Part shown: positions 13,954 through 60,041 of the stretch, one piece after another | Numbering within the stretch: position 1 is the first letter of the stretch | How the letters are laid out: every line of letters starts with the position of its first letter | From: Gonatopus flavifemur | Lineage: Eukaryota > Arthropoda > Insecta > Hymenoptera > Dryinidae | Assembly (NCBI GenBank): GCA_018340375.1 | Contig: JAFFJZ010000013.1 | Span: forward strand, 6,860,501 to 6,924,500 | Reading direction: 5' to 3' | DNA length: 64,000 nt | Notes under the pieces: model-generated | Seen by the model: only the letters and a program-made list of their open reading frames with translations | Database searches by the model: none | What the model was told of the DNA's origin: nothing | Translations under genes and position numbers: made by a program

Positions 13954-14040
13954 AAAAAAAAAATGAAATGTCTCCACACAGAATCGAACCCGACAGTTCT
14001 TCCGCAAGAAACATGTCGTTTGCCGCTAGGCTATGGGGTC
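13954..14040 (-). ncRNA. tRNA-like Pol III unit, right arm of A
   Basis: Inverted copy of the left-arm unit. A box, B box and terminator are conserved, with one visible difference between A box and anticodon region (CAAACGAC against CAAAAGAC). Confidence 0.55.
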
Positions 14041-29917: not shown

Positions 29918-29921
29918 GCAA

Positions 29922-33897: not shown

Positions 33898-34251
33898 CGC
33901 TAATCAAAATTTCATCCAACCAATAAAATATAGTTTATGTGATCACACTTGTTTCCGTATTCAATTGTTTTCTCATACTTCCCCTTTCTCTTTCATGTAA
34001 AGACGCGTGAGTCGCTTGAACTTGTCAAAAGTGGGTATATTACTATTGTTTCGAAAATATATACTCTCATACGCAGAAACATAGTAACAACCCAATAAAC
34101 ATTTGATTTCTCAAGATATGTTTTAGATATGTTCAAGATTCCTTATGCGACACTCTCAGATATCTGAAGGATAACTTTTTGTATCTTGAGATATCTTAAA
34201 CATGTCTTGGACGTTTTAAGAGACATAAGATATGTTCAAGATACCTCAAGA

Positions 34252-34550
34252 TACACGGAGAAAATGATTTGACGAAAGATTACTCAAAGTTGAGCAAAAC
34301 GGGGGCATACTGGCATTTCGGCGAGGTTCCAAATTCGGTTGACGTCGTTTCACTCGACAACAGATGAAAATTCATACAAATGTTCCTTCACAATACTCAA
34401 CTTGTAGAGATAATGAGAACATCCGAATGAATTTTCATCTGCAGTCCAGTAAAACGGGGTCAATGGAATTTGAAACCTCACGGAAATGCCACTATGTCCT
34501 CGTTTTACTCAACTTTGGGGAATCTTTCGACAAAATATTTTCTGCGTGTA
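34252..34550. mobile_element. MITE at the centre of B
   Basis: Inverted termini TACACGGAGAAAATGATTTG and, reverse-complemented, TACACGCAGAAAATATTTTG, each with outer TA. The halves (CAAAGTTGAG, GATGAAAATTCAT blocks) are themselves inverted, so the MITE forms the hairpin centre of B. Confidence 0.75.
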
Positions 34551-34834
34551 CGAAAAGTCATCTTTTAGATATCTGAGAGTGTCGCATAAGGAATCTTGAA
34601 CATATCTAAAACATATCTTGAGAAATCAAATGTTTATTGGGTTGTTACTATGTTTCTGCGTATGAGAGTATATATTTTCGAAACAATAGTAATATACCCA
34701 CTTTTGACAAGTTCAAGCGACTCACGCGTCTTTACATGAAAGAGAAAGGGGAAGTATGAGAAAACAATTGAATACGGAAACAAGTGTGATCACATAAACT
34801 ATATTTTATTGGTTGGATGAAATTTTGATTAGCG

Positions 34835-35146
34835 TTGCAACTGTTTGAGTGGGGAAAACAACACATTCTATCAATTCAATTTTTCCATGTCACAAATAAA
34901 GAATATTTAGAAGGAGAAAACCAGAGCTCTGAAAGGTTTCAAAAGGCGATAGCAATTATTGGAACTCAAACATACCACTGTTTCATCCCTGTAAGTGAGA
35001 CGCATATCAGAACGAAAATATTGTCTTTTTCTGAGAAATCAGACATCAACAAAATTCTAATGCACTCGGCTGACGAAGATATACCGTTCGAAAAAATTGA
35101 CGGTTTTGTAAATAAAAAATACCATTTAGATTCCAACCCGACATGA
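34835..35146 (+). CDS. 103-codon ORF in right arm of B, unknown
   Basis: Inverted duplicate of 33586-33897. Of seven base differences I count between them, five change amino acids and two are silent, so there is no sign of purifying selection since duplication. Confidence 0.35.
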   Translation: MQLFEWGKQHILSIQFFHVTNKEYLEGENQSSERFQKAIAIIGTQTYHCFIPVSETHIRTKILSFSEKSDINKILMHSADEDIPFEKIDGFVNKKYHLDSNPT

Positions 35147-35703
35147 TTTTTTGTTTGTTTTTTGTTTGTGTTTTGTTTATTTTTTTTTGTTTCACTTCTG
35201 ACGAGATCCGACAGAGTCGCATGATGAGTATTCAGCGTTACGGGGCGAATATCAGACAAATTAATTTTTTTCAATATGATGCCATCGAGTTTACATATTG
35301 AAACTTGGTGTGTACATTTGTTATTAGTGTACAAACTTTATGTATGTTTTTCAAAAAAAAAAAATTTGCCGCCCGGAAGTTATCAAAAAAATCATTGTTT
35401 ATTTGTTTATAAATTCTTTATTGTTCATGTATCATGGTTGTATCGTATACCAAATGAAAGATGAGAGATTCACGAAGAAAATTGACTGATCATTTAATCC
35501 TGTAGCTGAAATAGTTTTCGAGTTATGGTCGATTGAAATTTGCAAGGAACCGTCATTGTTAGGATTTTCAAAAATGAATATTTTGAAAACCGCGGGTGGT
35601 GGAGATCTAATGTTTGGAGATTAGTTACTATCGATATGCAAAGTATCAAAAATTTCTGAGAACCTAAGTTCCCATTTTTGCCGGTTATATATGGACTTAC
35701 CCG

Positions 35704-37411: not shown

Positions 37412-38353
37412 GGGGAGAGTGGTGTACCCCTGACCCAATGTACCTCTGACCTATCATTGATTACAACGCCACCTGTAGTGTTTTCAGAAAGCTGGTTAGC
37501 GTAATTCAATGTTCCACTCACAGAGACACTGTCAAAGTTGTGTGCATTTCAACCGCTTACGCCTTGGCGTAAACATAACGTTTCGAAATTTTCTTGATCA
37601 AAAAGTAAGTTTTTTCCAAGGCTGTTTTTTCTTCATTACTCAGTATTAATAAAATTTTCGGACAAAGTGTTAGTATCACATAATACTATTGAGCATTCAT
37701 AATATTTGTGTCAGAGCCGAATCAAAATATACCAAACCTAAAATTTTTGAGAGGCAGTTTATTAGAAAAAGTCCACATCGTGCACCCCTGACCCAAAGAT
37801 TTTCGTGTACCTCTGACCTAGGTCAGAGGTACAACAAATATTCTTTTCTGGATATAATTGATTTGTGATGGATTCAACAATGTTTCTATCATCTTTCTTT
37901 CTCTCGATATTACAATTGAGTAATTGATTGCAAAACTGACATCGTCATAAAATTTCTGAATGATAGAACAAGCCTCCGTTTGACCATGACACCATAGTTT
38001 TTCACTCGTTGCTGTGATAATATCTCTCTTGTCATAAATTTTCTTGAAGAATTAGAAAGACTCTTTCGCTTAATTCATAGCCGTAACCGGGATCTGGAAC
38101 CCTTGCACTTCGTATACATAATCAAAATGAACAATGACTAAAATCATTCTGATAAGTGAGAAAGTTGGACATGTTTTTTTTTAGATCTTTCGTGAACGTA
38201 TCCAGTGTTTCTCCTCCCTCCTCTCAAATGTTTCCTAAGTTACGGCTTTTTATGCATTTACTGATATTTCGAAATTTCATCAAGAAGTTTTCTGTTGCCT
38301 ACTTGAAAGTTGAGTTTGAGAGTTTTTTGTGTTGATCAATCTCAGGATAAAAA

Positions 38354-39414
38354 ATCCCACGCAGTGAACATAAAATCAAAAGGAAACGGGTATCTGTCAC
38401 AGACCTGGAACGTGCTGTTCAAGGAGTTGTAAGAGGTGAATTGACTGTTCATGTGGCTGCGAAAAAATATGGTTCAGTGAAAAATACTGTCCGGCATCAT
38501 GTGAATATTTTCAAAGAATCGGGCCGAGACAAATTGACTTATAACCGAAATAATGATACTCAGGAAGTATTCAATGAAGAAAAGGAGTTACAACTCGTTG
38601 AGTACTCGAAAACTGCTAAGACTTACAATATGGTTTGAAGCCAGTTGAAGTAGAAGTGCTGCCTTATGAATTTGCAAAGGTGCTTCACAGAGTTTATCAC
38701 AAGTCATGGGATGAAAAGTGTATGGCAGGTGATGAATGGCTCCGTCTTTTCCGCAACCGACACAAAAATTGCCTTGCATTGCGAAAACCAGAAGCGATAA
38801 GTCTTGCTAGATCTACAGCTTCCAACAAAGCCAACATATCTTCATTTTTCGATAATTACAAGGCGGCTCTCGCTAAACATCCTGACATAGGTATAAGAAA
38901 CATTTGGGATGTCGATGAGACTGTGATAAGCACGGTTCACGTTCCACCGAAAGTGTTTGCAGCAAAGGGTGTGAAGCAAGTTGGAAGTATGACCAATGCA
39001 GAAAGAGGCGCACATCTAACTATGATTGCAGCAATATGTGCGGGAGGAACTTCTATATCTCCAGTGCTCATTCTTCCACGGATGAGATTCAAAGATTTTA
39101 TGCTCGAAGGAGTACCAACAGACTGGATTGGAGGGGCTAATTCTTCTGGTTGGTCTAACGAAAATCTTTTCCATGATTTTTTGTTGCATTTCATAAAACA
39201 TACGCAAGCAAGTTTACGAAATCCAGTTATTATAAGTTATTTGATTGCTTAACAACCATGAATCACACATGTCACTCGCCGTCATTCAAACTGCCAAAGG
39301 AAACGGAATGACTTTGGTGAGTTCCCATCCTCATACAAGTCACAAGATGCAGCCATTCGATAGAGGAGTATTTGGACCTTCCAAAACATATTACAGTGAA
39401 GCCATGAGTGACTG
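38354..39414 (+). pseudogene. pogo-like transposase, N-terminal DNA-binding and DDE core
   Basis: The frame begins at an ATC where an ATG is expected (38354), followed by RSEHKIKRKRVSVTDLERA and LTVHVAAKKYGSVKNTVRHH, a Psq/CENP-B-type helix-turn-helix. A frame change near 38635 leads into YHKSWDEKCMAGDEWLRLFR, then IRNIWDVDETVIS (first catalytic Asp). A second frame change near 39240 leads to LLNNHESHMS, where the usual second catalytic Asp of the DNHESH motif is Asn, and then HKMQPFDRGVFGPSKTYYSEA (third Asp). It encodes the cut-and-paste recombinase of the outer element and is interrupted by element C at 39415. Confidence 0.85.
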
Positions 39415-42123
39415 TAGGCCAGTCAAATTAGAACAAAAAGAGGCTTTAAGGTGAACTAATTGGAGCCAGGATCAAACCTGGTGGAATCGATAGTGGAGAT
39501 GGTCCAGATGGAGGGAAATGAAATTTGCAACTCGTACCTGTTGTGGGGGATAAATTATTGGCAATAAACAATTTTTCAACTCCGTCTTTTTTCCTATTCC
39601 GATGGATATCTCGGTAAGAGTTCGAGATATCGAAACATTGTACTGAGCCTTTTTTGTAGGGAAATGAATTCTCTAAAAGTTGAGCCATATTCATTTTTGC
39701 CGTAATTGTCTTTGTTTCGATGCTACGGGGTCTCAAAGTTGGGATTTTTTATGTCAAATTTGACCCGTTTTTCGGTGAATCCACTTTCATCAACAAATTG
39801 AAAACAACGAACTTAGAGTTGCTGAATCGATTCGGCAAAATTAAGGGGATAACTAGACACCTGAAGGATCATTTTCATATGGATTAAAGATTTTTGCAAA
39901 ACGTTTTGTTTATTTGCAAGTCATGTGAAGATTAATCTTCAAAAAACGCGTTTTTTTTTCAGTCCTTTAAGGTATTCACCCATTTAAAGGACCCCAAGAC
40001 GAAAAATCCTGAATGGATCTTGTAGAGAAGGATGAAACCAACGAATTTGAGCCCTTGAAATTTTGTTGTAAAATACACCACTTCGCTGTTATTCAACGAC
40101 GAAGGGGACCCCTTTTGGAGAAGCACATATATCTTTCTACAGGGGAACATTTTTAGTGTCGTAGATACTCTATTTTTTCAACATTCCAAAGCACCTGACA
40201 AATGCAAGAAAAAAATTGTTGAAAAATTTCATTTGTTCATAACAAATGGAATTGTTGCTTGATTCTTGGGATCCTGGATCTTTTCTATACCTGAATCGAA
40301 TAGCCTTTGCCACCTCAAAAATGATCTGGTATTGAGAAAAAATCCAAAAATTGGGAAAAAAAAATTGTCTACAACAATTAATCAACATTATCGATATTTC
40401 GGTTCCCAAAGTGGGCCAAAGTGTTCCTCAGAATCCCCGATAAAGATGCCTGATTTGAAAAATTTTTTTCATCCATGATTTAACATTTGTTTATTTATTT
40501 GTTTATAATAAAAAAACCGAAATTGTCGGATCTTCATGGGAATGGACAGGTCATCATATGGAATGGAGCTAGCTGAACGCGAATATGGAGATTTGATTCT
40601 TTATTTCTCATCCCTTTTTCATTGTTTATCAATTGTTTATAACTAATTCCTAATTTTCCACCGTTTTTCGATCCGAGAAAAATCTTCAAAAATCACATTT
40701 TTTCTTCCAAAGTCATTCCACTAGTCAAAAATTGCAATTTATTTTTTTTTTACTGATTGGTCATAAAATTATTTGAGAAAAAAAATTTTTCCTCAACAAT
40801 TTTCAATCTGGAAAACGCTGCTTCATATAAGGGAGCGCTCTACAAACATATATTCGTCAACAGGAATTCCATTTTTGGTTCTTCCAATTGATGTTTAGTA
40901 ATTTGTTTATAAACAAATTAATTTTTTTTCAATTTTTCTTTAGGAAGAATGTCTTTTCGAATGTTTTCGAGGACGCTGAACACGAATCCATGCTCAAAAA
41001 TGTTGATTTTTTACCCCTTCTCTATTTCTGTTCATATTGTTGTTGAAAGAAAAATCTTTTTTTCCATTCCATCTAAAAGTGAGGTATACATTGGGGTGGG
41101 CCGAAAAAACTCAACTTTTTCCCTCGAGTCGCTATACCGCGGAGAAGTTGCGATTTGGAATGACAAGAAATATTTTAAAAAATCAATAAAAAATATAGAT
41201 GTCTTCCGGTCGCGCAAAGCTCCCAAAGTTCATAAAAATAGGTGAAAATCCACTATTCCACGTGAATTTTCGAAATAATCAGAGATATTATGATTCGAAC
41301 GCTATAGCTGTGATGAATCAATGATGAAATCATCGTAAACAATCGAGGGTCCCCATGCAATAACCACGTAGGCGCTCGAGAAGCGGCATAAGTATTGCCC
41401 AAGCCATGACGTCGAGGGGCGCAGAAAAAATTCGGAATTTCGAAAATCCAGAAATACTGGACAATAGGGCTTGAAGAATTGATATGAGTCTCCGTTGACG
41501 ATTTTTTTCCAGGATCAGTAGTTTTCGAGAAAAAAAATAAAAACTATCTATTCTTCCGCACCACAAATCAATGTTTCCCAATATTAAACTCGTTCAAACT
41601 CGGTCATTTTTCGATGTATCTTGATGAATCTTCCGGATTCTGATTCGTAAGACTTCCCCGAAGACAACAGTGTATAAAAAATTCATAAAAGTTGATAATA
41701 AATCACCAATTTTTTAATCCGAAGTGAAAACCCCGTTTTCCATGCTTTGCATTGAAAAAGTGTCAGGGGAAATATGAGCTACAAAAAACTTCCAGCGACA
41801 AAGTTGTTCACTAGTATATGGACAAACTTTGTGGAAAGTTTCAGATCGATTGGACTCTTAGTTCGCGAAATACAGCGGTTTATTTATTGACGCGCGACCG
41901 AAATTTTTCACCATTTTGCGTCATTCATCAATTAAATATCAAGGTCCGTAGGAAAGATTGTGTTCGCTCAATATTTGAACCTGGGTTTATGTTTTTGGGG
42001 TCAGAAAATTCGAATATCGAACTATTTTCGCAAAATTCTGTATTCATTTCTCTTGAATGAACAATTCAATTGTTTATAACGTTATTATGAAATACTATTA
42101 ACCAAAGAGAAACATTTGCTTGA

Positions 42124-42345
42124 CAAGAAAAGTTTAAACATAATTATTATGAAAATCGGGACGGTACAACATTTTTCATAGAACAATCATTAACCGTACA
42201 GCATTTAGACGGAGCACCACTCACTGAACCAGTGGGCATTCCTAAAGAGAAACAGAATGATTCCAATTATCTTATGAAATATCTCTCTCCAAAGGGAAAA
42301 GAATTCTTTGATGCATTAATACCTAAAGATGGGGAAGAGGTGTAA
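42124..42345 (+). CDS. coding-like fragment in the spacer of D, unknown
   Basis: An open frame of 73 codons without ATG, ending in TAA, reads TTFFIEQSLTVQHLDGAPLT then YLMKYLSPKGKEFFDALIPK. Composition is protein-like and unlike flanking arm sequence. It could be a 3'-terminal exon of the transposase that once mobilised D. No family is recognised. Confidence 0.35.
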   Translation, partial: QEKFKHNYYENRDGTTFFIEQSLTVQHLDGAPLTEPVGIPKEKQNDSNYLMKYLSPKGKEFFDALIPKDGEEV

Positions 42346-43758
42346 AAATAATCGATTTGTGAAAGGCACAACATTACAAAGTTAGCTGCATAATGTGTTG
42401 TTTAAAAAATTTGCTACTTTATGTAATACAGGCCATGTGAATTTATTCAAATATACTTATGATACTCATGAAAATACAAGTGTTTTGATAAAAATTTTTG
42501 TGTACAAAATCTAATTATCGCAAGATAAGAAACTTTTGTTGTCAAGAAAATGTTTCTCTTTGGTCAATAGTATTTCCATAATAACGTTATAAACAATTGA
42601 ATTGTTCATTCAAGAGAAATGAATACAGAATTTTGCGAAAATAGTTCGACATTCGAATTTTCTGACCCCAAAAACATAAACCCAGGTTCAAATATTGAGC
42701 GAACACAATCTTTCCTACGGACCTCGATATTTAATTGATGAATGACGCAAAATGGTGAAAAATTTCGGTCGCGCGTTAATAAATAAACCGCTGTATTCCG
42801 CGAACTAAGAGTCCAATCGATCTGAAACTTTCCACAAAGTTTGTCCATATACTAGTGAACAACTTTGTCGCTGGAAGTTTTTTGTAGCTCATATTTCCCC
42901 TGACACTTTTTCAATGCAAAGCATGGAAAACAGGGTTTTCACTTCGGATTAAAAAATTGGTGATTTATTATCAACTTTTATGAATTTTTTATACACTGTT
43001 GTCTTCGGGGAAGTCTTACGAATCAGAATCCGGAAGATTCATCAAGATACATCGAAAAATGACCGAATTTGAACGAGGTTGATATTGGAAAACATTGATT
43101 TGTGGTGCGAAAGAATAGGGGCCATTCCATTTCAAATCGACCACGACATGCGGGACCAAATTCTTTTTTGGCCTGTAACTCACAGGACACATTCTTTGAG
43201 TGATATTAAGAGACACATGTTTCAGCTTTTTGCGCAAAATTTGATCCTTCTCGTTCTAGAGTGAATTGAATTCCCAGAAAACGACATTGATTTCTTTTCT
43301 CCTCCTGTGAACTTTTTCTTCAAACCTGCGTAGTTTCCTCAAAAATGCACCGTTTTGGATGATTCTTTTTTTAATTTGCAGGTCATTCCCCACACTTTAA
43401 GAATCCGTGAATAGAATTCCATTTCTTTGAGCGCGAAATCTGTAAATTTGCATTAAATAAAAATTGTAAAAAAAATTCAACTGCAAAATTTTCAAAGTAC
43501 TACATTTTTTTTTTCTTTCAAACTTTTTTGTCGAAAAGTACGAGGTTTGAACAACAATCTCTCCGTTCCTCAATATGCGAATTGTGTTTGTTTCCGAATA
43601 ACAATTTTTTATTCAAAAATACGACTTTATTCGTGTTCATATGTTTTCAATCTGTATGTATAGCTTTGTGGAGGGAAGGAGATGTATTTATTGCACAAAG
43701 TGTCAATACACAAAATAATGAATAAAACTGAAAACAATTTCAGATTCATGATTTTATT

Positions 43759-44871
43759 TTATTTCAACTTCATCAAATCGTGATCGCATGTTTTGGCTGT
43801 ATATACGCAAGACGATGAGTCCTCGTGATATGCTTTCTTCCATACATGGGTAGCCCATATTCCGTTGAAAGTCTTCACATTCTTCCAAGCTTTTATTTTC
43901 TTCTCACGGAAAATTTTCAATTTTTTTGTATCAAGAAGACATAAATTTATATTCGGTGTGTAGTTTTTCACCTGCGTCACAAAATCTTCTGCTGTTTTGA
44001 TACTGTCAAGCATTTCTTTTGCCAAATTATGTTTAGTGGCATAATGTTTAACGAGTCCCCCAATTCCATCGCATGCTCCCTTTCCGTGTCCTGTGCCAGA
44101 AAAAATCCATTTCTTATCGTGTTCAGAATTTTGAAATTCCTCAAACTGAAAACTATTTTTGAAGTGCCCTGCTGCTCCATCAGATATGATTGTTTCATAC
44201 TCAATTTCTTCTGCGGGGTATTTCTGTTTTACTTCTCCTTTAATTATGTCCATGGCTAGTATAGCAAACGCGGTATCGTGCTGTCTGTCATCGCTGACAA
44301 CTGCAAAGCTTAAAGTTCTCTCACCGTAATAGCAAACTGCTGTGAAAATCGAAATTTGCTGATTTATCCAATGATGCCCTTGGATTTCATCTTTCAAGAT
44401 TACAGCCCAATTTTCAGCAAAATCCACATGGAGTATTAAATGACCTGATTTTGTTCTAGCAACGTCTTTTTCATTTCTTATTCCACGCTGCTGAATCTCC
44501 TTACATCGTAAATGCGGACTCACCTTCATTGTCCATATTTTCAATTGTTGGATGAAGTTTTCCATCGTTACTGTTTTTTTAATCAGGTCATTCTTTTCCC
44601 ACCAAGCAAAAGTTATTTCTTCATCTTCATCTATTTCGGAGAATCCTAAAACGTTTACAGTGATCGCGTCAGCTCCGGGGCATGTCGAACATTGTTGAAA
44701 AATGCATTCATTACTGTCTACCGAACATACTATCGCGGAGAGAAGTTTTTGACGGATACTTAGCATATTTTGCGTAGTGTCATTAACTTCACAATTTGTC
44801 AATACTGTCAGCAATAAAACGAAATTTGCACAATATATACACAGGCAAACTTCCTGAGATGGAGAGAGCAT
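43759..44871 (-). CDS. DDE-like transposase with GHGKG...DGIGG motif
   Basis: An uninterrupted 370-codon frame. The N terminus starts inside a conserved-looking block (QEVCLCIYCANFVLLL), so upstream residues are probably lost at the spacer boundary. A Cys-rich region follows (CIFQQCSTCPGA), then acidic motifs that look catalytic: LHVDFAENWAVILKDE, AVVSDDRQHDTAFA and ETIISDGAAGHFKNSFQF, and the hallmark FSGTGHGKGACDGIGGLVKH. The D...DG...GHGKG-D order suggests an RNase H-fold recombinase seen in many animal genomes, but I cannot name the superfamily. The start ATG may be secondary. Codons 211-370 lie in the palindrome arm and are repeated at 44895-45389. It is the largest intact transposase-like frame in the nest and the obvious candidate to mobilise F. 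Confidence 0.65.
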   Translation of the reverse strand: MLSPSQEVCLCIYCANFVLLLTVLTNCEVNDTTQNMLSIRQKLLSAIVCSVDSNECIFQQCSTCPGADAITVNVLGFSEIDEDEEITFAWWEKNDLIKKTVTMENFIQQLKIWTMKVSPHLRCKEIQQRGIRNEKDVARTKSGHLILHVDFAENWAVILKDEIQGHHWINQQISIFTAVCYYGERTLSFAVVSDDRQHDTAFAILAMDIIKGEVKQKYPAEEIEYETIISDGAAGHFKNSFQFEEFQNSEHDKKWIFSGTGHGKGACDGIGGLVKHYATKHNLAKEMLDSIKTAEDFVTQVKNYTPNINLCLLDTKKLKIFREKKIKAWKNVKTFNGIWATHVWKKAYHEDSSSCVYTAKTCDHDLMKLK

Positions 44872-44894
44872 AACCCGCGTTTGCTATACTAGCC

Positions 44895-45389
44895 ATGGAC
44901 ATAATTGAAGGAGAAGTAAAACAGAAATACCCCGCAGAAGAAATTGAGTATGAAACAATCATATCTGATGGAGCAGCAGGGCACTTCAAAAATAGTTTTC
45001 AGTTTGAGGAATTTCAAAATTCTGAACACGATAAGAAATTGATTTTTTCTGGCACAGGACACGGAAAGGGAGCATGCGATGGAATTGGGGGACTCGTTAA
45101 ACATTATGCCACTAAACATAATTTGGCAAAAGAAATGCTTGACAGTATCAAAACAGCAGAAGATTTTGTGACGCAGGTGAAAAACTACACACCGAATGTA
45201 AATTTATGTCTTCTTGATACAAAAAAATTGAAAATTTTCCGTGAGAAGAAAATAAAAGCTTGGAAGAATGTGAAGACTTTCAACGGAATACGGGCTACCC
45301 ATGTATGGAAGAAAGCATATAACGAGGACTCATCGTCTTGCGTATATACAGCCAAAACATGCGATCACGATTTGATGAAGTTGAAATAA
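44895..45389 (+). pseudogene. inverted partial copy of the GHGKG transposase
   Basis: 164 codons identical to codons 207-370 of the minus-strand gene except for about five substitutions (for example KKLIF for KKWIF and NGIRATH for NGIWATH). It begins at the arm/spacer boundary, so it lacks the first acidic motif and cannot be a complete enzyme. Confidence 0.8.
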
Positions 45390-46976
45390 AATAAAATCAT
45401 GAATCTGAAATTGTTTTCAGTTTTATTCATTATTTTGTGTATTGACACTTTGTGAAATAAATACATCTCCTTCCCTCCACAAAGCTATACATACGGATTG
45501 AAAACATATAAACACGAATAAAGTCGTATTTTTTAATAAAAAATTGTTATTCGGAAACAAACAAAATTCGCATATTGAGGAACGGAGAGATTGTTGTTCA
45601 AACCTCGTACTTTTCGACAAAAAAGTTTGAAAGAAAAAAAAATGTAGTACTTTGAAAATTTTGCAGTTGAATTTTTTTCACAATTTTTATTTAATGCAAA
45701 TTTACAGATTTCGCGCTCAAAGAAATGGGATTCTATTCACGGATTCTTGAAGTGTGGGGAATGACCTGCAAATCGAAAAAAGAATCATCCAAAACGGTGC
45801 ATTTTTGAGGAAACTACGCAGGTTGGAAGAAGAAGTTCACAGGAGGAGAAAAGAAACCAATGTCGTTTTCTGGGAATTCAATTCACTCTAGAACGAGAAG
45901 GATCGAATTTTGCGCAAAAAGCTGAAACATGTGTCTCTTAATATCACTCAAAGAATGTGTCCTGTGAGTTACAGGCCAAAAAAAAATTTGGTCCCGAATG
46001 TCGTGGTCGATTTGAAATGGAATGGCCCATAGATAGTTTTTATTTTTTTCCTCGAAAACTACTGATCCTGGAAAAAAATCGTCAACGGAGACTCATATCA
46101 ATTTTTCAAGCCCTATTGTCCAGTATTTCTAGATTTTCGAAATTCCGAATTTTTTCTTCGACCCTTGACGTCATGGCTTGGGCAATACTTATGCCGCTTC
46201 TCGAGCGCTTACGTGGTTATTGCATGGGGACCCTCGATTGTGGAAAATCACCGAAATCATTCAATGCATTCAGTTTACTCATTGACATGAAATTCATGCG
46301 GAATATTGAGGAAGCAAGTGCGTGCGTGCACTGAAAAAAACAATGTAGCTGAATTTGAGTCCGAGTCCATTCTGTAATTACTGTGATTGTATTATGACCA
46401 TGAAAATGTGCGATAGATATGACCGAACTCGTGTGGATCCCTCAGAGAGAGAAGAAAAATGGAATTAGTATCACTTTCTTCATTCAATACAATGTATAGA
46501 ATAAAGAAACCTTTATTAGTCTGAGTGTTTTCTGTTAAAATATTTTATCTCTTTCCTACATGACTCTTTCCATTTCTCTCATTTATTGCCTTCATTTACT
46601 CAATTCTGATTGATTGTCTTTGTTCTATGTATTCATGATTATGGATGTTGCACTTACTTCCAAAGTAACCTCAATAAGAACGTGACTTCCGTAACTACAA
46701 AACTCAAATTCGATTGCATTCTCTTCTCAATGTGTGATTGCCGTGTTTATTAATCTGAAATTCATAAGAAATTGCTGTTTTGTTACTACATGATATAAAT
46801 ATATTACTACGTGAAAAAATTGAGAATATTGACCCAGCTCAGGTTGAGGATGGTAAAATCCGATTAACCCCTGGGCGCCAAAAATGTACAAACGCCCTTG
46901 CTCCTGCCTTCTTTTCTCATCATTATGCCAATTTTGCTGAAGCTCTCATGCGTTCACATCTTCATGTTACTTTACG

Positions 46977-47291
46977 TTGAGTGTTGTGCGGTGTTGTGTT
47001 GTGAAGTTTTTGAGATACATAATGGCAGCCTCAATGAAAATGATTACAAGAAATGTCTCCGAGTGCCCTATATTTGGTAAACCCAGAGATCTTGTGCAAA
47101 ATATACTTCCCACGCACGAAGACGTGATTCGGTGCTGTTTCCAAGAACAGTATAATTTATCTGTGAAGGTTAATAACAAAAGTGTCAGTTTTTCAAACGT
47201 GGCTCATAATGTGGCTGATAAAATGAAATGTTGGTTGAGGAAGGATCTATTCTATAGTATAGATGCTTTCTCAAACAAAATGTTCGTTTGA
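46977..47291 (+). CDS. ORF at the centre of C, left arm, unknown
   Basis: Reads CPIFGKPRDLVQNILPTHED then CCFQEQYNLSVKVNNKSVSF, running to the palindrome centre. The block is repeated inverted in the right arm (47490-47292, frame 47577-47185), with a few substitutions (K/Q, N/K, K/E). The NILPTHEDVI style recalls N-terminal parts of transposon proteins, possibly of the GHGKG family; that is inference. Confidence 0.35.
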   Translation: MSVVRCCVVKFLRYIMAASMKMITRNVSECPIFGKPRDLVQNILPTHEDVIRCCFQEQYNLSVKVNNKSVSFSNVAHNVADKMKCWLRKDLFYSIDAFSNKMFV

Positions 47292-48602
47292 GAATATATA
47301 CTATAGAATATACACTATAGAATAGATCCTTCCTCAACCAACATTTCATTTCATCAGCTACTTTATGAGCCACGTTTGAAAAACTGACACTTTTGTTATT
47401 AACCTGTACAGATAAATTATACTGTTCTTGGAAACAGCACCGAATCACGTCTTCGTGCGTGGGAAGTATATTTTGCACAAAATCTCTGGAAGTTGCGGAA
47501 GTCATGTTCTTATTGAGGTTACTGTGGAAGTAAGTGCAACGTTCATAATCATAAAGACATAGAACAAAGACAATCAATCAGAATTTAGTAAATGTAGGCA
47601 ATAAATAAGAGAAATGAAAAGAGTCATGTAGGAAAGAGATAAAATATTTTAACAGAAAACACTCAGACTAACCCTTTAACGCCGAGAATGCACGTAATTT
47701 TTAGTCAACTTTGGAGGTGTGCATTGGTTACTTAACGGGTGAATTTTTCATCCAACCCCACTTTTCTTATTGTTTTCGAGGTCGCTCTTTCTAATGACGT
47801 TGAGAAAAATTGAGAGAAAAAATTGTAACACCGAGTTTTTTACACTTTTTCATTAAAAACCACGATTTTAAACGAAAGTTAACTTTGACCATTCGAGTGT
47901 AAGAGATACCAGGGGCGGATTTAGGAATGGATTTGGGAGGGGAGGGGGTCGTGAACTTCTCAATAGGAATGAGGAGTTATATTTATTTCAAGGCTTATAC
48001 CACAGTGGTGATTTTTCCGTGAAAATGTTCGGGAACTGTTGAAAGAGAACACGGGCCAGATGAGGCCTCATTTTGCACGATGCCCTGAAATTAGGCACCA
48101 TCGGGCCCATTTTTTATTTTGAGAGTTTTCGTACATTTTTGAGAAAAAAGACCACTTTGGCAAAACTTTTGACGTGACCTTGACTTTTTGTTCCTATTAG
48201 TTTGATTTTGGATTTGAGAATTTGCAGATCGTTCTCAAAATTCATTCTGCAACTAAGTTTCTGGCAATATTTTTTCTTAGGAGAGGGGGGTTGTCATCCC
48301 ATACTGAATTCAATATTGTCTTTCGCCATTGACTCCCAATGTTGCCCGATTCTCACCACGCGGAGGTAGACAATCTTCGAAAATCTTTTTCTAATTTTTT
48401 TTTGTTTTTTTTTTCATTAAATTCCTTTTTTGTTTCTCTTATTCTTTGAAATTTTTTTCCATTTTTGAACGTTTCTTAAAATTGTTCTGTATTTTTTTCG
48501 AGTTTTTGTTTCTTATTTCCAATTTTCTTTCCATTTCCATACATTTTTTCTTGTCAATTCCGTCCATAAGCTTGGTGAATTTTTTCCACATCTTCACAGA
48601 GC

Positions 48603-50302
48603 TCAATGGCTGGATTTGAAACATGGCATACAATAATACGAATCACAATCTTGACAATATCTATCCGTTCTTTTTTCGCACTTTTTTGCTGGGCAATATT
48701 CGAATGTTTTCCCTACGATTGATTTGTGCTGGTCAATGTTAGCCTCCCTCAAGTACTCTTCGCTCAATGCAATTGCGAAGTCTTCCGTGCTATACTCTTT
48801 ATCTTCTGGCCCAGCCATATCTCTCAGAATAACCGCATTTGTAATGGAAGATTCAATCATCCTCATCAGAATCACCGATGTCCACTTTCTCGAACGCACC
48901 ACGGGTAATACTTTGCTACACCTCTGATCATGCAAATCTACCCCACCCATTAACCTATTATATGCTGAAAAGGCGCTGGGAAAAGATGTATCGCATTTCT
49001 CTCTTTTTTCCTCATCAAAACGTTTGACAACAGTAAGAGGAGTTACGCCTGCTGCGCTTGATGATATTGACACTGGTTTGGAGTCTGAAACAGTGATAAA
49101 ATTGATTCCACTCTTTACCTCATGTTTAACTGCGAAAGTCCCTCTTTTTGCTCTGGTGTCAATATAATTCTTCTCTTTCATACGGTTCTTTCTTACTGTA
49201 CCAGTTGCCCGTATTACAATTTCACCCAGGTGTACTAATAAATCAGGACAGCAGAAAAGATTGTCAAAGCAAACGTGATATTGATCTATTTTATTTTTTG
49301 GTCCACTATGGAGCAGTTTCTGGAACATTTCCATGACCACACGACTTCCCATAGCGCATTTGAGTAAGAGATTAATGTTGGCGTTTCTCCGCAGTATATA
49401 TCACAGTCGAATAAATACCCGTTAGCGCCGCACAAAGCCCACATTTTGATTCCAAATCTGATAGGTTTCGATCTGATGAACTGTTTCAACGAAGTCCTAC
49501 CGTAAAATTTGAGCATCATCTCGTCGATCGGAAGAGCTGTTGAAAACACTCCAAATCTGTTCAGATTTTGCCTAAATATCTGTAAGACTGGTCTCACGCG
49601 CCAGATTATATCACTAGGATTTTCATCTTCTGGTTTTGATAATTTGAGATTGGATTTGATCATTTCGAACTCATCACGAGTCATGACCTTAGCAACCACG
49701 TCAGATCTGAGATACGGATCTGTCGACCAATAATCTCTCTGAGACGTGCGGCCATTGAATGTTGTGAATATAATTATACCCAAGAATATATTCAATTTTT
49801 CTGGATTGAGATCATATCCATCCATTTTTGTAGCCTCAATTATGTATGTGTCCATCTCAGAAGAAAGAAAGAATTCAAATAATTGGGTATCGGAACACTC
49901 GGAGAGTTTTTTTCTTCTAGTTTTTTCTGGAAGTGGCATTTCATTTTTCAGCGTAGAATTGTACCTTTTTCCTCCATCAACCCAAGTGTATTCGGAATTC
50001 TCTTCCAATTTTTTTTGCGAATCTTCATAAGCCTGGAAAATTTTTTGATAGGATGAAGATGAGAGAAAATTTTCACTTTCGCTATCTGAACTATCTGAAA
50101 CGGTTCCTTCAAATTCTGAGTTATAGGCATCAGATTCTCCAGAATCATCTGGATTCGGAATGTAAACGAACTCATCATAATCCTCTCCCTCGTAAGATTC
50201 AATTGAATCAATTGATACATGTTTTCTTTTGTCACATCGGCTGGTCGAAGCTTTCTGAGCAGATGGAATGACACTTTTTCTTTTCGGCATTTCAATGACC
50301 AA
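48603..50302 (-). pseudogene. piggyBac transposase, nearly complete, one frameshift
   Basis: Frame 50302-49286 gives an acidic N terminus (DSGESDAYNSEFEGTVSDSS) and the DDE start: LPEKTRRKKLSECSDTQLFE, FLGIIIFTTFNGRTSQRDYW and ALPIDEMMLKFYGR with the first catalytic Asp. Frame 49352-48603 continues with QYHVCFDNLFCCPDLL (second Asp), AYNRLMGGVDLHDQR (third Asp) and the C-terminal Cys-rich zinc domain (CPAKKCEKR, YCQDCDSYYCMPCF). The frames overlap near 49320, so a single small indel separates two otherwise complete halves. Total length of about 570 residues is normal for piggyBac. The last ~95 codons lie in the palindrome arm. Confidence 0.92.
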
Positions 50303-50789
50303 TTGAGGAACGAATTATTATTTGATGGATGTGATGAAGAAGGTATAAGGAAATCAGTAGACTCACAGTACTTTTGACGAATATAGAAGAAACCGTAGAA
50401 TATATGAATCTAGTCGCGAATTATTTGAGATTCAAGAATAAGAATATAGACGTACGAAAAAATATAAAGCATCATTTTCACTCCTAAAAATGTTAAAACT
50501 AGGGAGATTTTGTAAAGGGGAGATCGAGAATGGGAATCATTATGAGGATATAATATCTGTCTTCCAGTATATAATAGTCTAGTGTGATGATGATGATGGT
50601 ACCTATTTCGATATTGAAAATTTGATCTTCTGTGACTACTGTTCAGCGTTATGTGCGCCCATCAGGTGTGATGAAATTTGATGTCCAATTTGTGGAGATT
50701 TGGCTGACATTCGTACTATATTCTGGAAATTCAGAATCAGTTCACAGTGTTAGTTTGTATAAGTCCATGCAAAATGGACATGGGTGATT

Positions 50790-51226
50790 CTGATGAGGAT
50801 AATTCAATCTTCCATCGCAAATGTGGTTATTCTGGGAAATATTGCTGGGCTAGGAAATGAAAAATATAGTACGAAAAACTTTGCAATTGCATTGAGTGAA
50901 CGGTACTTGCGCAAAGCCAAGGGCGTATCCAGAATTTTTTTTCGGGAGGGGTCCACATTATAGGTGTATCGATATATCGATATATATATATGAGATATAT
51001 CGACATATAGGAAGGGAAAAATTGAGGAATTCGGGGGAGGAGTCCGGGCCCCCTGGACCCTCCCCCTGAATACGCCCCTGCAGAAGGCTAACATTCACCA
51101 GCACAAATCAGTGGTAGGGAACACATTTGAATATTGCTCAGCAAAAAAATGCGAAGAAAGGACGAATAGATATTGTCGAGATTGTGATTCATATTATTGT
51201 ATGTCATGTTTCACATCAATCCATTG
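50790..51226 (+). pseudogene. inverted copy of the piggyBac C terminus, split by a MITE
   Basis: The plus strand encodes a diverged version of the C-terminal end (ILMRIIQSSIANVVILGN, then AKKCEERTNRYCRDCDSYYC), reaching a stop at about 51224. It is interrupted by a MITE at 50918-51079. It is the right-arm counterpart of 48603-48890. Confidence 0.8.
50918..51079. mobile_element. MITE with CAGGGGCGTAT-like termini
   Basis: Termini CAAGGGCGTATCCAG and CTGAATACGCCCCTG. The flanks CGCAAAGC and CAGAAGGC match at five of eight bases, compatible with an old hAT-type 8-bp duplication. The interior has an ATATATCGATATAT run. Confidence 0.7.
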
Positions 51227-53236
51227 AGCTTTGTAGAAATGTAGAAGAAATTCTCTGAGCTTATGAACGGAACTCACAAGAAAAAATGCATGGGAATGAG
51301 AAAAGAATTGGAAATAAGAAACAAAAACTCGAAAAAAATGCAAAAAAAAACGCTGAAAGAAAAATAAGTGAAAAAAAGATCCTCGAAGATTGTCTACCTC
51401 TGTGTGGTGAAAATCGGGCACCATTGGGAGTCAGTGACAAATGACAATATTGAATTTAGTGTGGGATGACAACCCCCCCCCCCCTTAAAAAACACTATTG
51501 CAAAAACTTAGTTGCAGAATAAATTTTGAGAAGGACCTGCGAATCCTCAAATCCAAAATCAAACCAATAGAAACAATAAGTCAAGGTCACGTCAAAATTT
51601 TTCCCAAAGTAGTCTTTTCTCTCAAAAATGTACGGAAACTCTTAAAATAGAGAATGGGCCTGATAGTGCCTGATTTCGGGGCAACGTGCGAAATGGGGCC
51701 TCATCTGGCCCATGTTCTCTTCCAACAGTTGCTGAAGACTTTCGCGAAAAAATGACCACTTTGGTACAGGCCTTGACATAAATATAACTCCTGGTTCCTA
51801 TTGAGAAGTTCACAACCCCCTTCTCTCCCAAATCCATTCCTAGATCCGCCCCTGGTATCTCTTACACTCGAATGGTCAAAGTTAACTCTGATACGAACAG
51901 TCAATCCATTTTCACAACTTTTCAGTACAAGAAAAGATCGTTCTATTTTCTCAGAAAAAGACGGTTTTGCTTTGGCCCCAAGAGTGTACCCCAAAGCACC
52001 CAAAGTAAAAGTGAGTTTTTTGACCAAAAGGGTCAGAATGTCTATTGGGCCATCTTTTATACATGAACAACCCGCACAAGGGGTCCATTCCAAATCCACG
52101 AGTCGTATTCGTGTAAAAAGGATTGGAAGCCTCCAGAATATGACTATTTTTACACTTTTCGAGACTGTTTTTCTAATATATTGGAGGCCCCCTGCTGGAT
52201 TACTCTCAGATTATCGATGATTAATCGTGCAAGATACTTGTGAGAGTGATGAAGTCACTAATAATCAGCAGGAACAGAAACTAGTGGCACTTGAATGCAA
52301 AAAAACGTCGAAAAATCGAAGGTTTGTAAATTTTTGAGTTTAAGCCGCCATTTTGAATTACCTGTCGGTAAAAAAATTTTTCTGCTGCACAGTCTTGGAG
52401 TTCAACTATCAATTGCACGGTCTATGTTTGTTCAACCCGGATAGAAAGGCGTTCTGGTGTTGAAAATTCAGTTTGTAAAAAAAAACAGACGGAAAAATCG
52501 TGTTTTTCAATGGAAAAGGGTAAAAACTCAGTGTTACAATTTTTTTTCTCATTTTTTCTGAACGTCATTAGGAAAAGCGACCTCGGAAACGATAAGAAAA
52601 GTGGGTTTGGATGAAAAATTCACCCGTGAAGTAACCAATGCACACCTCCAAAGTTGACGAAAAATTTCGTGCATTCTCGGCGTTAAAGGGCTGATAAAGG
52701 TTCTTTTATTTTATACATTGTATGAAATAAAGAGAGTAATTCTCATTCCATTCTTCTTCTCTTTCTGAGGGATCCACACGAGTTCGGTCAAATCTATTGC
52801 ACATTCTCATGGCCATAATACAGTTACAGTAACTACAGAATGGACTCGGACTCAAATTCAGCTACATTGTTTTTTTTTCAGTGCACGCACGCACCTGCTC
52901 CCTCAATATTCCGCATGAATTTCATGCTAATGGGTGAACTGAATGCATTGAATGATTTCGGTGATTTTCCACAATTGTTTACGATGATTTCATCATTGAT
53001 TCATCACAGCTATAGCGTTCGAATCATAATATCTCTGATTATTTCGAAAATTCACGTGGAATAGTGGATTTTCACCTATTTTTATGAACTTTGGGAGCTT
53101 TGCGCGACCGGAAGACATCGATATTTTTTATTGATTTTTTTTTATATCTCTTGTCATTCCGAATCGCAACTTTTTCGCGGTATAGCGACTCGAGAAAAAA
53201 AAGTTGAGTTTTTTCGGCCCACCCTAGTATACGTGT

Positions 53237-53617
53237 GTATAAGACCTTCGAATCACAATATTTATCAGTCAAATGCTGTCAAGAGATATTTTCATACCGT
53301 CAGGGACCGTTCTTAAGGGATTATTTCATTTGGAATGGAGATTTCGAAGTCCTACATGTTCATGAATTATATCGAATCTAGCGGAGTCAAGAATTCACAC
53401 ATGTATATATATATATCTCATGTTTCACGACTTTTATAACAATCAAGTTTGCCATGGAGGAATTGAACAACAAAATTCTGTATTCCCCCCTTACTAGATA
53501 CGGCAGGATAATCCAAATGAAATAATCCCTCAAGAACGGTCCCTTACAGTATGAAAATATCATTTGACCGAATTTGACTGATAAATATTGTAATTTGAGG
53601 GGCTTATATACATGTAC
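53237..53617. mobile_element. palindromic MITE in the right arm of C
   Basis: Absent from the left arm of C (compare 41080-41105). Long inverted arms share CACAATATTTATCAGTCAAA-like, GATATTTTCATAC and GGGACCGTTCTTAAGGGATT blocks, around a non-coding centre with (TA)n. Edges are approximate. Confidence 0.7.
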
Positions 53618-55274
53618 ACCTCACTTTCAGATGGAATGGAAAAAAAATTTTCCTTTTCATAACAATATGAACAAAAATAGAGGAGGGGTGGAAAATCAAC
53701 ATTTTTGAGCACGGATTCGTGTTCAGCGTCCTCAAAAACATTCGAGAAGACATATTTCCTAAAGAAAAATTGAAAAAAAATTGATTTGTTCATAAACAAG
53801 TTACTAAACATCAATGGGAAGAACCAAAAATGGAATTTCTGTTGACGAATATATGTTTGAAGAGCGCTACCTTATATAAAGCAGCGTTTTTCAGATTGAA
53901 AATTGTTGAGGAAAAATTTTTTTTCTCAAATAATTTTATGACCAATCAGTAAAAAAAAAATAAATTGCAATTTTTGACTAGTGGAATGACTCTGGAAGAA
54001 ATAATGTAATTTTTAAAGATTTTTCTCGGATCGAAAAACGGTGAAAAATTAGGAATTAGTTATAAACAATTGATAAACAATGAAAAAGGGATGAGAAATG
54101 AAGAATCAAATCTCCATATTCGCGTTCAGCTAGCTCCATTCCATATGATGACCTGTCCGTTCCCATGAAGATCCGACAATTTCGGTTTTTTTATTATAAA
54201 CAAATTAATAAACAAATGTTAAATCATGGATGAAAAAAATTTTTCAAATCAGGCATCTTGATCGGGGATTCTGAGGAACACTTTGGCCCACTTTGGGAAC
54301 CGAAATATCGATAATGTTGATTAATTGTTGTAGACAATTTTTTTTTCCCAATTTTTGGATTTTTTTTTAATACCATATCATTTTTGAGGTGGCAAAGGCT
54401 ATTCGATTCAGGTATAGAAAAGATCCAGGATTCCGAAAATCAAGCAACAATTCCATTTGTTATGAACAAATGAAATTTTTCAACAATTTTTTTCTTGCAT
54501 TTGTCAGGTGCTTTGGAATGTTGAAAGAATAGAGTATCCCCGACACTAAAAATGTTCCCCTGTAGAAAGATATATGCGCTTCTCCAAAAGGGGTCCTCTT
54601 CGTCGTTGAATAACAGCGAAGTGGTGTATTTTACCAAAAAATTCCAAGGGCTCAAATTTGTTGGTTTCATCCTTCTCTACAAGATCCATTCAGGATTTTT
54701 CGTCTTGGGGTCCTTTAAATGAGTGAATACCTTAAAGGACTGAAAAAAACGCGTTTTTGAAGATTAATTTTCACATGACTTGCAAATGAACAAAACGTTT
54801 TGCAAAAATCTTTAATCCATATGAAAATGATCCTTCAGGTGTCTAGTTATCCCCTAAATTCTGCCGAATCGATTCAGCAACTCGAAGTTCGTTGTTTTCA
54901 ATTTGTTGATGAAAGTGGATTCACCGAAAAACGGGTCAAATTTGACATCAAAAATTCCAACTTTGAGACCCCGTAGCATCGAAACGAAGACAATTACGGC
55001 AAAAATGAATATTGCTTAACTTTTAGAGAATTCATTTCCCTACAAAAAAGGCTCAGTACAATGTTTCGATATCTCGAACTCTTACCGAGATATCCATCGA
55101 AATAGGAAAGAAGACGGAGTTGAAAAATTGTTCATTGCTAATAATTTATCCCCCACAACAGGTACGAGTTGCAAATTTTATTTCCTCTCATCTGGACCAT
55201 TTCCACTACCGATTCGACCAGGTTTGATCTTGGTTCCAATTAGTTCACCCTAAATTCCTAATTTGACTGGCCTA

Positions 55275-56281
55275 TGGATGATTCAACCTGGAAATGCAGG
55301 GAAGCCTGCCACTATTCATGATGTTCCAGAATTGGCTTACAAAGCTTTCCAACTCACCTTCACTCTATCTAATATAATTTTAGGTTTTTGTGCTACTGGT
55401 ATCCAGCCTTTGAATGAAGGTATTTCCACTGATGCAGATTTCTCACCATCTAATGTCACCAATAGACCAGTACCTCCACTTACGACACAATTCCGTCACA
55501 ATTAACTCTTATTCCTCCAGAAACAGCTTTCACTCCTTCATCACAGTCCTCGTCAGGAGAGGGCCTACTCACAGGTACGGACATTCAATGGCACCAGTCG
55601 ACCCCTTCTGACAGTTCTTCATTGGTCAAGTCATACACACTTGCTGATTTGGATGCTACAGTTGGTTCATCGGCCATAGTTTCCTCTGTTGATATCAGGG
55701 CCTTCCCAAAAGCTGTACCAAGGGAAAGAACTCGAAAAGGACGACCGAAAGGCAAGAGTTGTATTCTAACTGATACACCAGAGAAAACTCGAATTGAGAA
55801 TGAAATAGCTGCATCACTTGCAAAGGAAATAAGACTTACAAAAAAAGCTATTGATAAGAAAGGAAAACTGACAACAATCCGAAGGAGAATCATTCCAAGC
55901 GGTTTCGAGTCAGATCTAGAAACTTCAGTCGCACAGTTATATGACAGTCCTCATGGAGAAGAAGAATTTGGAGATTTGGAAGATTTTGATGAACAAAAAA
56001 TTCAAAGAGGAGTCTACATTTTGGTGAAAATTTGTACTAAAAAAACAGCGAAGTTCTTTATCGCAGAAATAATCGAAATAGGCGAAGAACATTTGCAGGT
56101 GAAATACTTGAAAAGAATTCCCAATTCTTACAAATTCACTCGAGATGACGATACAATTCACAATATAGAAAAATCAGATCTGATTTTGAGATTACCGATG
56201 CCAATTGTTAGCAGAAAGTCAGCGAGACAGCTACGAAATTTATCTTTTGGCGTTGATCTTTCCCAACATGGAGTTGAATAG
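55275..56281 (+). pseudogene. pogo-like transposase, C-terminal part
   Basis: Continuation of 38354-39414 after element C: GNAGKPATIHDVPELAYKAF, FCATGIQPLNEG and SPSNVTNRPVP, the usual C-terminal DDE end. After a frame change near 55500-55620 comes AFPKAVPRERTRKGRPKGKS, a basic-acidic tail and ILVKICTKKTAKFFIAEIIE, ending at 56279-56281. Confidence 0.85.
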
Positions 56282-57027
56282 AATCAAAATAGGAAAATAG
56301 TGATCGCAGGTTTACTTCCAATCTATTCCACATTATCACTCAACTCACATTCACTCAATAGATTTGATTAAATTTGCTATATTTTTATTTTTGTTCGTAC
56401 TTCGTTTCTTCTATGAAATCTACATTTGTGTTTATTTCCCTTTGAGTGTTTCTGTTTTCGTCTTATTGTTTTGTTTTGGTATAGTAATTTTATTATTTTT
56501 TGAAAATTTCTCAATAAGATTGATGAGTCGGAACTCGTTTTTTTTATTTGTTTTCTTTGACATATTGTTAGTATAATCCACCGAACGCTTGTTCCTTGAG
56601 AATTCCTTTTTGATTGAAAGTTTTGAGAAATAGGTCAGAGGTACACCATGCCTAGGTCAGAGGTACATTGGGGTGTTGTACCTCTGACCCAATTTTCTTT
56701 TCGCAAAAGAATTCAAGAAAAGCATAGGAGGAATTGATTCAATGCCTTTATCAAATCCCATAATATGTACAGACGTACTAGTGACTGATATCTACTCAGA
56801 AGAATCATAAATTGCCAATATTATGGGAATTCAAAATGAAGAGGCGAAAATAGGTCAGAGTTACAACACCTTCCCCTATCTCATTTTTTGACATATCGGA
56901 ATAAAACTTACAAAGTCTGATTCGTAAGACTAACAGAAACATAGATGTGGGCAGAATTTGTTGGAATCGATTGTTGATTAGTATTTTTTTTTTCATGAGA
57001 ACCTCCCCTCAATAAACTGGTACTAAT

Positions 57028-58549: not shown

Positions 58550-60041
58550 TTTGTGATCACTTTGTCAGCAAAAGAAAAAATTCGATTCTTTCAACTCAAG
58601 TTACCATACTACTACTGTCGAATCGTCTACTTGAAAATTCACGGATTCGGGTATTTCCGTGTGCGTTCGTGCACGATCGTTCATGTGCCTGAGGTGGTCG
58701 CGTCGCTTCGGTTAGTTGCCGCTGGGATTCACCGAAGAGTGCACGAACATTCAGAGCACGATCCGAATAATCTATTCCTTTTCATGTCCTTATATTTTTA
58801 ATAAAGTGAAATTTCATAAGTAAATAGCGAAACGTCATTTCGCCGAGACACCCTTCCCTTGAGTACTAATCGAGGGTCCGTGTTTCGATAAAATTGTCAC
58901 CGCGAAGAACAATTAACAAGTTGGTCCTAACGAGCCAGGTTTCCCATAAACCACGTTAACGGAGTGAGTGAATTTCGGTTGACATAGTGCTCATGACGCA
59001 AATGTGCATAAGAATCGCTCAAGTGCAAGTGAACAATAAACGTGAACAAATCGTTATGAGGAATGTGTACCCGACTGAATAAGTGTACTGGCGGCGACTC
59101 GATATTTTTCTAATCAAAATCGTTGACGAAACGTTGTCAGTAACACGGAACGTGGTGGAAAACAAGCCATCATTTAGCCGCACGAATTGTCGTACATTTT
59201 CAAGCGACATAAGGACGCGGCCTGGGTCGCCATTTTGTCCCATTCGACTCAGCACGGCAGACGAGCCGTGCGACGGATTTCTTGTTCAACGGAACAGGAT
59301 AACACAGCGCCAACGGACGCTTCAGTGATTGTCGGTGCTCCGCGCTGGTTGCGACTTACCGACACTTCGAACAGTCAATCGATTGATGAGCTTCCACACA
59401 ACGAGTAGTAGAGGGCATCTCATCGAGCCTTGGTGACAATCATCGGGCAAAACAACGAAGCGACATTCTTGGCGAAAGAATGTCAACATCCACGATCATC
59501 ATCAACGTTACGAGATAAGTCATTAAACTCTTATTTGTTATTTCCGCTCAATGTTTGAGGATATCAACACGAACAAACCGTTATTTCAAATCGTAACGCA
59601 TCATTTGCGAATTATTTTGAATTCCATTCGAGGCGTAGTACATGATTATCAGTGTGTATATTATATTTCGATTTTGATTGAATGATTAGAATCAAGGATC
59701 ATTGAAATCATCCGTTCGTGTAATCCATTAGTTGTCATATTATATTTTTGTTCGAGAGTTAGCAGATTATGTTTACCGCGTTTAACTTTACGTTATCATA
59801 ATATCAAATGCCTCAGAACGTCTTTAGTATATTTATTTTGAAAATATTGTATCAAAGATACTTTCGTATTTGTTCATTTGATTATTTTTCTTTAGAATAA
59901 CTGACAACAGAACTTAAGATTCAACGTAGTGAGTCGGTTTTCGTTTCGCGTATTTTATTTCACGAATGCACACGTGTATTCGGATATCCGTGATTCGATT
60001 GGATTTATATTACCTTTCATTCGAAGTAAATTGGGTAAAAG

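Follow-up and report, generated by a model that had tools for sequence, protein, structure and literature searches.

Serial insertion of palindromic transposons in a Gonatopus flavifemur locus, with a candidate ribozyme-ended piggyBac gene module

How did palindromes of unrelated transposon kinds come to lie one inside another within a pogo element of the hymenopteran Gonatopus flavifemur? The locus in question (C35:6897900-6917400) lies in a stretch of 64,000 nucleotides (nt) of contig JAFFJZ010000013.1, assembly GCA_018340375.1 (G000:C35:6860501-6924500 in assembly coordinates), hereafter called the window, whose own numbering is used below. Self-comparison showed that positions 39415-55274 are filled with inverted repeats, the arms of which range from about 100 base pairs (bp) to about 1.7 kb and are 80-98% identical; the best inverted repeat scored 2618 bits, as against 40 bits for the best obtained when the region was resampled 20 times under a first-order Markov model. 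The order of nesting is pogo, X, Y, D and F from the outside inward, and P forms a second branch, also in Y. With a probability of about 0.8, we read this arrangement as the result of serial cut-and-paste insertions of already palindromic families, joined with a module of piggyBac elements that would form the 3' end of their messenger RNA (mRNA). The original prediction for this locus had been a four-deep palindromic nest of unrelated transposon kinds inside pogo. Copies of the separate elements were found elsewhere in the genome (636 Mb in 402 contigs, searched for relatives), which bears out the unrelated kinds, and the nesting inside pogo stands as well, whereas the depth is five. Alignment of the arms had been named as the point on which the palindromes might fail; they align across long stretches.

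The pogo-type host element (37412..56876, plus strand) carries terminal inverted repeats (TIRs) GGGGARRGTG, and its two ends, at 37412 and 56876, stand beside TA just as had been read before. Its gene is broken at 39414/55275 and is in frame once X is removed, reading SEAMSD before the join and WMIQPG after it; the DDE_1 match of the pogo open reading frame (ORF) at 38620-39252 is weak (17.5 bits, cut-off 22). The joined flanks of X, used as a 235-nt query, gave one uninterrupted match in a pogo relative (C392:19132187-19132419, 92% over 233 bases), which represents the empty site of X. As judged from this site, the insert in pogo is bordered by TG instead of the TA duplication formerly assigned to it. 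X itself (39415..55274; TIR TAGGCCAGTC; TG at both ends) has arms of about 1.68 kb, at 39415..41091 on the plus strand and 53612..55274 on the minus strand, which are 94.7% identical to each other, and a centre at 53235..53611 that is a small palindrome itself.

This centre had been called H and taken for a later insert in the right arm of a single palindromic element, C. In a survey of 20 further X loci, picked among the best matches of the genome search, 12 had H adjoining an X arm on its inner side, and the inverted arm pair was likewise present in 12. In the simplest copies (L011 and L012, each with a small deletion) H is the only sequence between the two arms, and thus it belongs to the centre of X. 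A further copy, L009, has X, Y and H and lacks D, F and P. The region does resemble a single long palindrome that has a piggyBac gene at its centre, as expected if C were one piggyBac element that received H afterwards; we consider this highly improbable, since piggyBac-type termini occur at 47672/52690, deep within C, L009 has the remaining parts without P, and the arms of P are 80-91% alike as against 94.7% for those of X. C is therefore X plus Y plus P. A divergence gradient produced by gene conversion within a single palindrome C was also considered and rejected, as three elements with different arm ages explain the central rise.

An exact 3-bp duplication borders X in six of 11 two-ended copies (L009, L012, L018, L019, L022 and L023), and the window copy, with its TG, is one of the five without it. 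Arms were compared in 11 of the 13 copies having both (L017 and L019, with short arms, were excluded). Mean identity was 93.1% within a copy and 86.3% between copies, and in 8 of the 11 copies no other copy matched the arms as closely as they matched one another, a pattern suggestive of re-formation or of conversion between the two arms. Further, six of the 12 loci in which H adjoins an X arm hold an extra 2.0-2.3 kb in the centre. L010:2637-4767, L013:3852-5983 and L014:2536-4632 have one stretch in common, which is 90-93% alike and contains no long frame, L017:1464-3804 and L020:2487-4687 share another with inverted segments, and L015:2732-4770 contains a frame of 215 amino acids (aa) that by our own reading resembles a mariner-type transposase. 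These stretches may be inserts or may represent a longer form of X; no gene naming the superfamily of X was found in the centres of these six copies.

Y (41092..53226; TIR TAGGGTGGGCC) is a palindromic element at one X/H junction, both in the window and in L009. In the window it is flanked by an 8-bp duplication with 7 of 8 positions matching (GTATACAT at 41084-41091, GTATACGT at 53227-53234), and in L009 the duplication ATGTATAC is perfect. The 8-bp length agrees with hAT elements; X, Y and F have no ORF of their own of 150 aa or more within the window, and Y was not classed as hAT. X/H junctions free of Y, that is, empty sites, were found in L010, L011, L012 and L014. L009 is built in the window orientation as X, Y (Y-Y2-G-g-G'-Y2'-Y'), H and X. 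Because Y occupies this X/H junction in L009 too, the insertion of Y into X probably preceded that of X into pogo. The centre of Y in the window (46519..47671) consists of G (46519-47082), g (47083-47489) and G' (47490-47671). The same order recurs in L009, by which a reading of G as a separate insert was ruled out; it is the centre of Y. Segment g is a hairpin, and its matches to the MIR2593 model, which reached 62.3 bits on one strand and 47.4 bits on the other (cut-off 96.2), were rejected as reflecting that hairpin.

The left arm of Y contains D (41344..46236), a palindromic element with AT-flanked TIRs CGAGGGTCCCC, arms at 41344-41548 plus 43118-44273 and at 44875-46236, and a loop at 44274-44874. 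Its empty site, AAACAATTGTGG, is present in the right Y arm of the window and in both Y arms of L009. F (41551..43115; TIR TTCTTYCGCACC; TA duplication) is an abundant palindromic element that lies in turn in the left arm of D, and the right arm of D provides its empty site. These positions, together with the uninterrupted opposite arm, had been seen correctly before and were confirmed. In the genome search for F the best 40 of 3,045 candidates were scored, and both arms of about 586 bp were present in all 17 other full-length copies among the matches listed.

Relatives of D preserve what may be the steps towards its palindrome. The window copy encodes an N-terminally truncated transposase of 374 aa on the minus strand (43762..44883), the match of which begins at residue 263 of the relative P0001. 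A D arm used as query found nine loci at ≥93% identity, comprising five full palindromes, two long forms and two truncated copies. The long form, on C392 and C166, is longer by 1,611 bases and has one short arm; that on C392 contains an open transposase frame of 702 aa, and that on C166 has one stop. Palindromic copies begin at P0001 residues 261-270, and their second arm repeats only the residues from 440-460 onward. The boundaries of the 601-nt loop are common to four of the five palindromes, although one of these four deviates by up to 2 nt. The fifth (C35:7768221) has a shortened loop, into which one of the arms extends by another 27 nt. The second arm would have been extended inward by reverse copying of the 3' end of the gene, with loss of the 5' part, for which aberrant gap repair after excision would be the simplest route; the palindromic derivative would then have spread, presumably mobilised in trans. 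With the long form and the derivative side by side, this route to palindromes is testable. No Pfam family was matched over the cut-off by the D ORFs. For the predicted fold of the D-type transposase (predicted local distance difference test score, pLDDT, 67), the best PDB matches include RNase H-like nucleases, none at E ≤ 0.001.

P (47672..52690; TIR CCCTTTAACG) is a palindromic piggyBac element with arms at 47672-48888 and 50771-52690 and a loop at 48889-50770. Its empty site, CACTCAGACTAATAAAGG, was found in the left Y arm of the window and in L009, with a single change in one L009 arm. The transposase (48606..50314, minus strand) is encoded by the overlapping ORFs 50314-49289 and 49400-48606, with a frameshift between them, and both matched DDE_Tnp_1_7 (PF13843) above the cut-off (E 4.9e-32 and 4.6e-22). 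In the genome search, for which the best 40 of 81 candidates were scored, the inverted 3' arm was present in all nine P loci with gene matches of 82-100%. In the window copy the two arms agree at 80-91%, and the gene region is 92-94% identical to five full-length copies elsewhere. The arms are thus more diverged than the gene is between copies, which makes the palindrome of P older than its spread. This is opposite to the behaviour of X, whose own arms are alike. A stretch of about 175 bases in the right arm (50910-51084), with GGGGCGTATTCAGGGGG-like inverted ends, is missing from the left arm. Related piggyBac stretches also occur as inverted, diverging pairs (G000:C35:2208456-2211553, C240:182928-186025 and C133:1867981-1870466), so that further palindromes seem to have part of the gene in each of their arms. 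For the L030 piggyBac transposase of this genome, the closest species-named relatives are hymenopteran (Prorops nasuta at 61%, Leptopilina heterotoma, Phymastichus coffea and ants); in IMG/VR and in prokaryote contigs no piggyBac relative was confirmed.

Palindromes are a recognised hazard in long-read libraries, and hairpin reads or an arm duplicated by the assembler could give rise to such a picture. It is very doubtful that they did so here, as the arms differ by 2-20% with values specific to each family, and as inserts with target duplications lie in one arm only. A one-armed artefact, raised before as a possible objection, is also not what the sequence presents, for similar structures recur on many other contigs. 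As the copies found elsewhere of X, D, F and P are mostly palindromic too, we conclude on sequence grounds that these are mobile families and not assembly errors.

On our preferred reading, each element would have moved as a finished palindrome. Y would have entered X, and X carrying Y would have entered pogo; D would have inserted into the left arm of Y and P into its other half, in either order, and F into D. Each palindrome could instead have arisen where it now lies, an ordinary insertion being followed by inverted duplication. The occurrence of palindromes in unrelated kinds of element suggests a genome-wide process, the arm identities of X within and between copies are those that re-formation or gene conversion would yield, and the slightly different loop boundary of one D palindrome could be taken in the same sense. 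We nevertheless hold formation in place to be improbable, because the target duplications enclose entire palindromes, four of the five D palindromes have loop boundaries in common, and the arms of P in the window are less alike than its gene region is to other full-length copies.

The second part of our reading concerns the 3' side of the piggyBac gene. On the minus strand, a hepatitis delta virus (HDV)-like ribozyme was predicted at 48315..48385 (RF02682, 48.4 bits, cut-off 44), with cleavage predicted 5' of 48385. It follows the transposase stop by 217 nt and is directly preceded by an A-rich tract. The other arm of P contains a decayed mirror copy (51378..51448, plus strand, 29.9 bits) in which helix P1 is broken. 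In the window ribozyme, P1 and P2 have 7 bp each, P2 being AUUGUCU/AGACAAU. As P2 is not among the printed pairs of the Rfam model, the presence of this pseudoknot helix is an independent check. Over eight hand-chosen family representatives the summed P2 score of 91 was attained by 2 of 40,320 strand pairings, the true one included; the pairing is weak in L056 and L047 and not convincing in L058.

A genome search in which 62 of 21,377 candidates were scored, and which therefore gives a lower bound, returned at least 38 ribozyme matches, 25 of them over the cut-off; no RF02682 signal was obtained in any of 14 control genomes. A piggyBac transposase lies upstream on the sense strand in 28 of the 30 loci read. 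Of the two exceptions, L050 has flanks that align at 81-85% with loci having piggyBac upstream. In L058 no piggyBac relation was found (L058:1-1577), and the ribozyme precedes a frame that we read as endonuclease-like, as in non-LTR elements (those without long terminal repeats, LTRs). PF13843 was identified in nine of ten ORFs given to Pfam, and the L058 ORF had no match. Among eight other copies of P, seven carry the ribozyme (four over the cut-off, three below it at 38.0-43.2 bits), and the eighth, L067, has no match and unrelated sequence at that place. Moreover, several divergent piggyBac families of this genome have the ribozyme in the same place behind the gene. In the L043-type family, for which the best 40 of 235 candidates were scored, 42 stretches were matched, of which 35 extend across the ribozyme, and one nearby inverted pair (on C219) was found over up to 1.2 kb searched. 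With inverted pairs so scarce, the module would not seem to be a side effect of palindromes.

The A-rich tract between the transposase stop and the ribozyme lies at 48386..48520 (minus strand) in P. In 29 of the 30 loci at least 53% of the 60 nt before the ribozyme are A (43% in L058), compared with 48 of the 12,241 60-mers taken elsewhere in these loci, the threshold of 53% having been chosen after the values were known. In bins of 20 nt, A makes up 38% at -140, increases to 74% at -20, and stands at 27% in the bin that opens the ribozyme, at the predicted cleavage site. Among the stretches compared, the ribozyme is the best conserved. In cluster D of the ribozyme loci (10 loci, L046 excluded) its identity is 92.6%, without gaps, with 88.0% for the coding part, 83.9% and 78.5% downstream, and 81.5% with 28% gapped columns for the tract. 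The corresponding values in cluster B (8 loci, L050 excluded) are 90.1% for the ribozyme, 84.5% for coding, 81.7% and 76.6% downstream, and 68.6% for the tract. In the P family (8 copies, two stretches compared) the ribozyme is 92.9% and the tract 69.3% identical, and the A fraction of the tract is 0.60-0.69. The tract keeps its composition as its sequence turns over.

Retrotransposons often have HDV-like ribozymes at their 5' ends, and the ribozyme might be the roleless relic of one that landed behind a transposase gene. L058, the one locus of 30 where it is not behind piggyBac and an endonuclease-like frame (our own reading, without a Pfam match) follows, would suit such an origin. A relic would hardly occupy the same place behind the gene across divergent families, exceed the coding sequence in conservation, as it does in both groups that allowed the comparison, or be accompanied by a tract that retains its composition, and we regard this origin as unlikely.

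We propose instead that several piggyBac families share a conserved 3' module of transposase stop, A-rich tract and HDV-like ribozyme, and that predicted self-cleavage would make the transposase mRNA end just after a DNA-encoded A-rich tail. A ribozyme-made 3' end behind such a tail would fit the fall in A content where cleavage is predicted. That this piggyBac clade makes its mRNA 3' ends without host cleavage and polyadenylation, through an encoded tail and ribozyme release, is put forward tentatively, at odds somewhat short of even. The main rival, which we hold to be less probable and on the unlikely side, is that the ribozyme mainly cuts read-through transcripts, avoiding double-stranded RNA from the arms or lowering transposase levels, and that the A-rich tract is incidental. 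The ribozyme of P is indeed located within an inverted arm, and RNAs cut without a proper tail would be short-lived. Palindromes are, however, not the common factor, given the single nearby inverted pair among the 42 stretches of the L043-type family, and A content peaks right beside the predicted cleavage site. Should 3'-end formation by the module prove true, the element would escape or weaken the control that the host has over transposase expression, and a transposon would have a possible new way to finish its mRNA.

Several observations weigh against the joint reading of palindromic insertions and a 3' module. In 8 of the 20 fetched X loci, arm matches occur in a single orientation only. 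The window copy of P has a 4-bp duplication where one is expected, but it reads CTAA/CTGA and not TTAA. The X of the window differs from that of L009 by about 10% and is no closer to it than to other X copies, so the one thing that would speak for a shared X+Y ancestor is the common insertion site. This site may be an insertion hot spot for Y, which is more conceivable because in other X copies this centre holds other stretches of 2.0-2.3 kb. In addition, the ribozyme loci read were 30 of the 38 matches listed, and that list omits the ribozyme of the window itself.

Other repeats were identified in the window outside the nest. A further palindrome at 11344-14451 has arms at 11344-12798 and 13064-14451 that are 93% alike, and another at 33015-35703 (arms 95.8%, termini CGGGTAAGTCC) has self-inverted segments at 34180-34550. 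A piggyBac transposase fragment was found at 29412-29948 (PF13843, E 1.6e-6), and the adjoining frame at 28549-29397 is by our own reading reverse transcriptase-like. By the same kind of reading, long frames at 14549-18992 and 60039-63781 resemble LTR retrotransposon gag/pol, the second being BEL/Pao-like. A 135-bp tandem repeat is present at 4770-5152 (2.9 copies, 84% matches).

Among known systems, the nest is closest to Galileo, a Foldback-like element of the P superfamily in Drosophila. The long TIRs of Galileo have incorporated the terminal part of the transposase ORF, in both orientations, and they take up insertions of other elements (PMC4168063). The likeness thus extends to very long TIRs, recruitment of the ORF end and elements inserted in the TIRs, and to suggest, as the original prediction did, that nothing comparable had been described was too strong. 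Here the architecture occurs in piggyBac (P) and in the unnamed transposase family of D, nested five deep, and no P-type (Galileo / P superfamily) transposase was found in X, Y, D, F or P, P being piggyBac, the D ORFs matching no Pfam family over the cut-off, and X, Y and F lacking any ORF of their own of 150 aa or more in the window. The nest is a new, deeper instance of a Galileo-like architecture in other families, and long palindromes of this kind also arise in piggyBac and in the transposase family of D.

For the ribozyme module, one parallel is artificial. Laboratory cassettes use a templated poly(A) ended by an HDV ribozyme; they are designed and not natural, and the module described here, an encoded A tail ended by the same kind of ribozyme, suggests a natural form of this trick. 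Neither a ribozyme in a natural piggyBac element nor a comparable nest was found among the titles and abstract openings listed in searches of open-licence literature. The HDV-like ribozyme of R2 forms the 5' end of the retrotransposon RNA (PMC3414825). R2 and other non-LTR retrotransposons thus share with P a ribozyme class that defines an end of mobile-element RNA, but in P the ribozyme stands 3' of a DNA-transposon gene, behind an A-rich tract. IStrons combine a group I intron with a bacterial insertion sequence, so that here too a DNA transposon carries a ribozyme (PMC4227781). They are self-splicing and bacterial, whereas the ribozyme of P is HDV-like, of the self-cleaving class, and belongs to an animal piggyBac element; the module would tie self-cleaving RNA to cut-and-paste DNA transposons.

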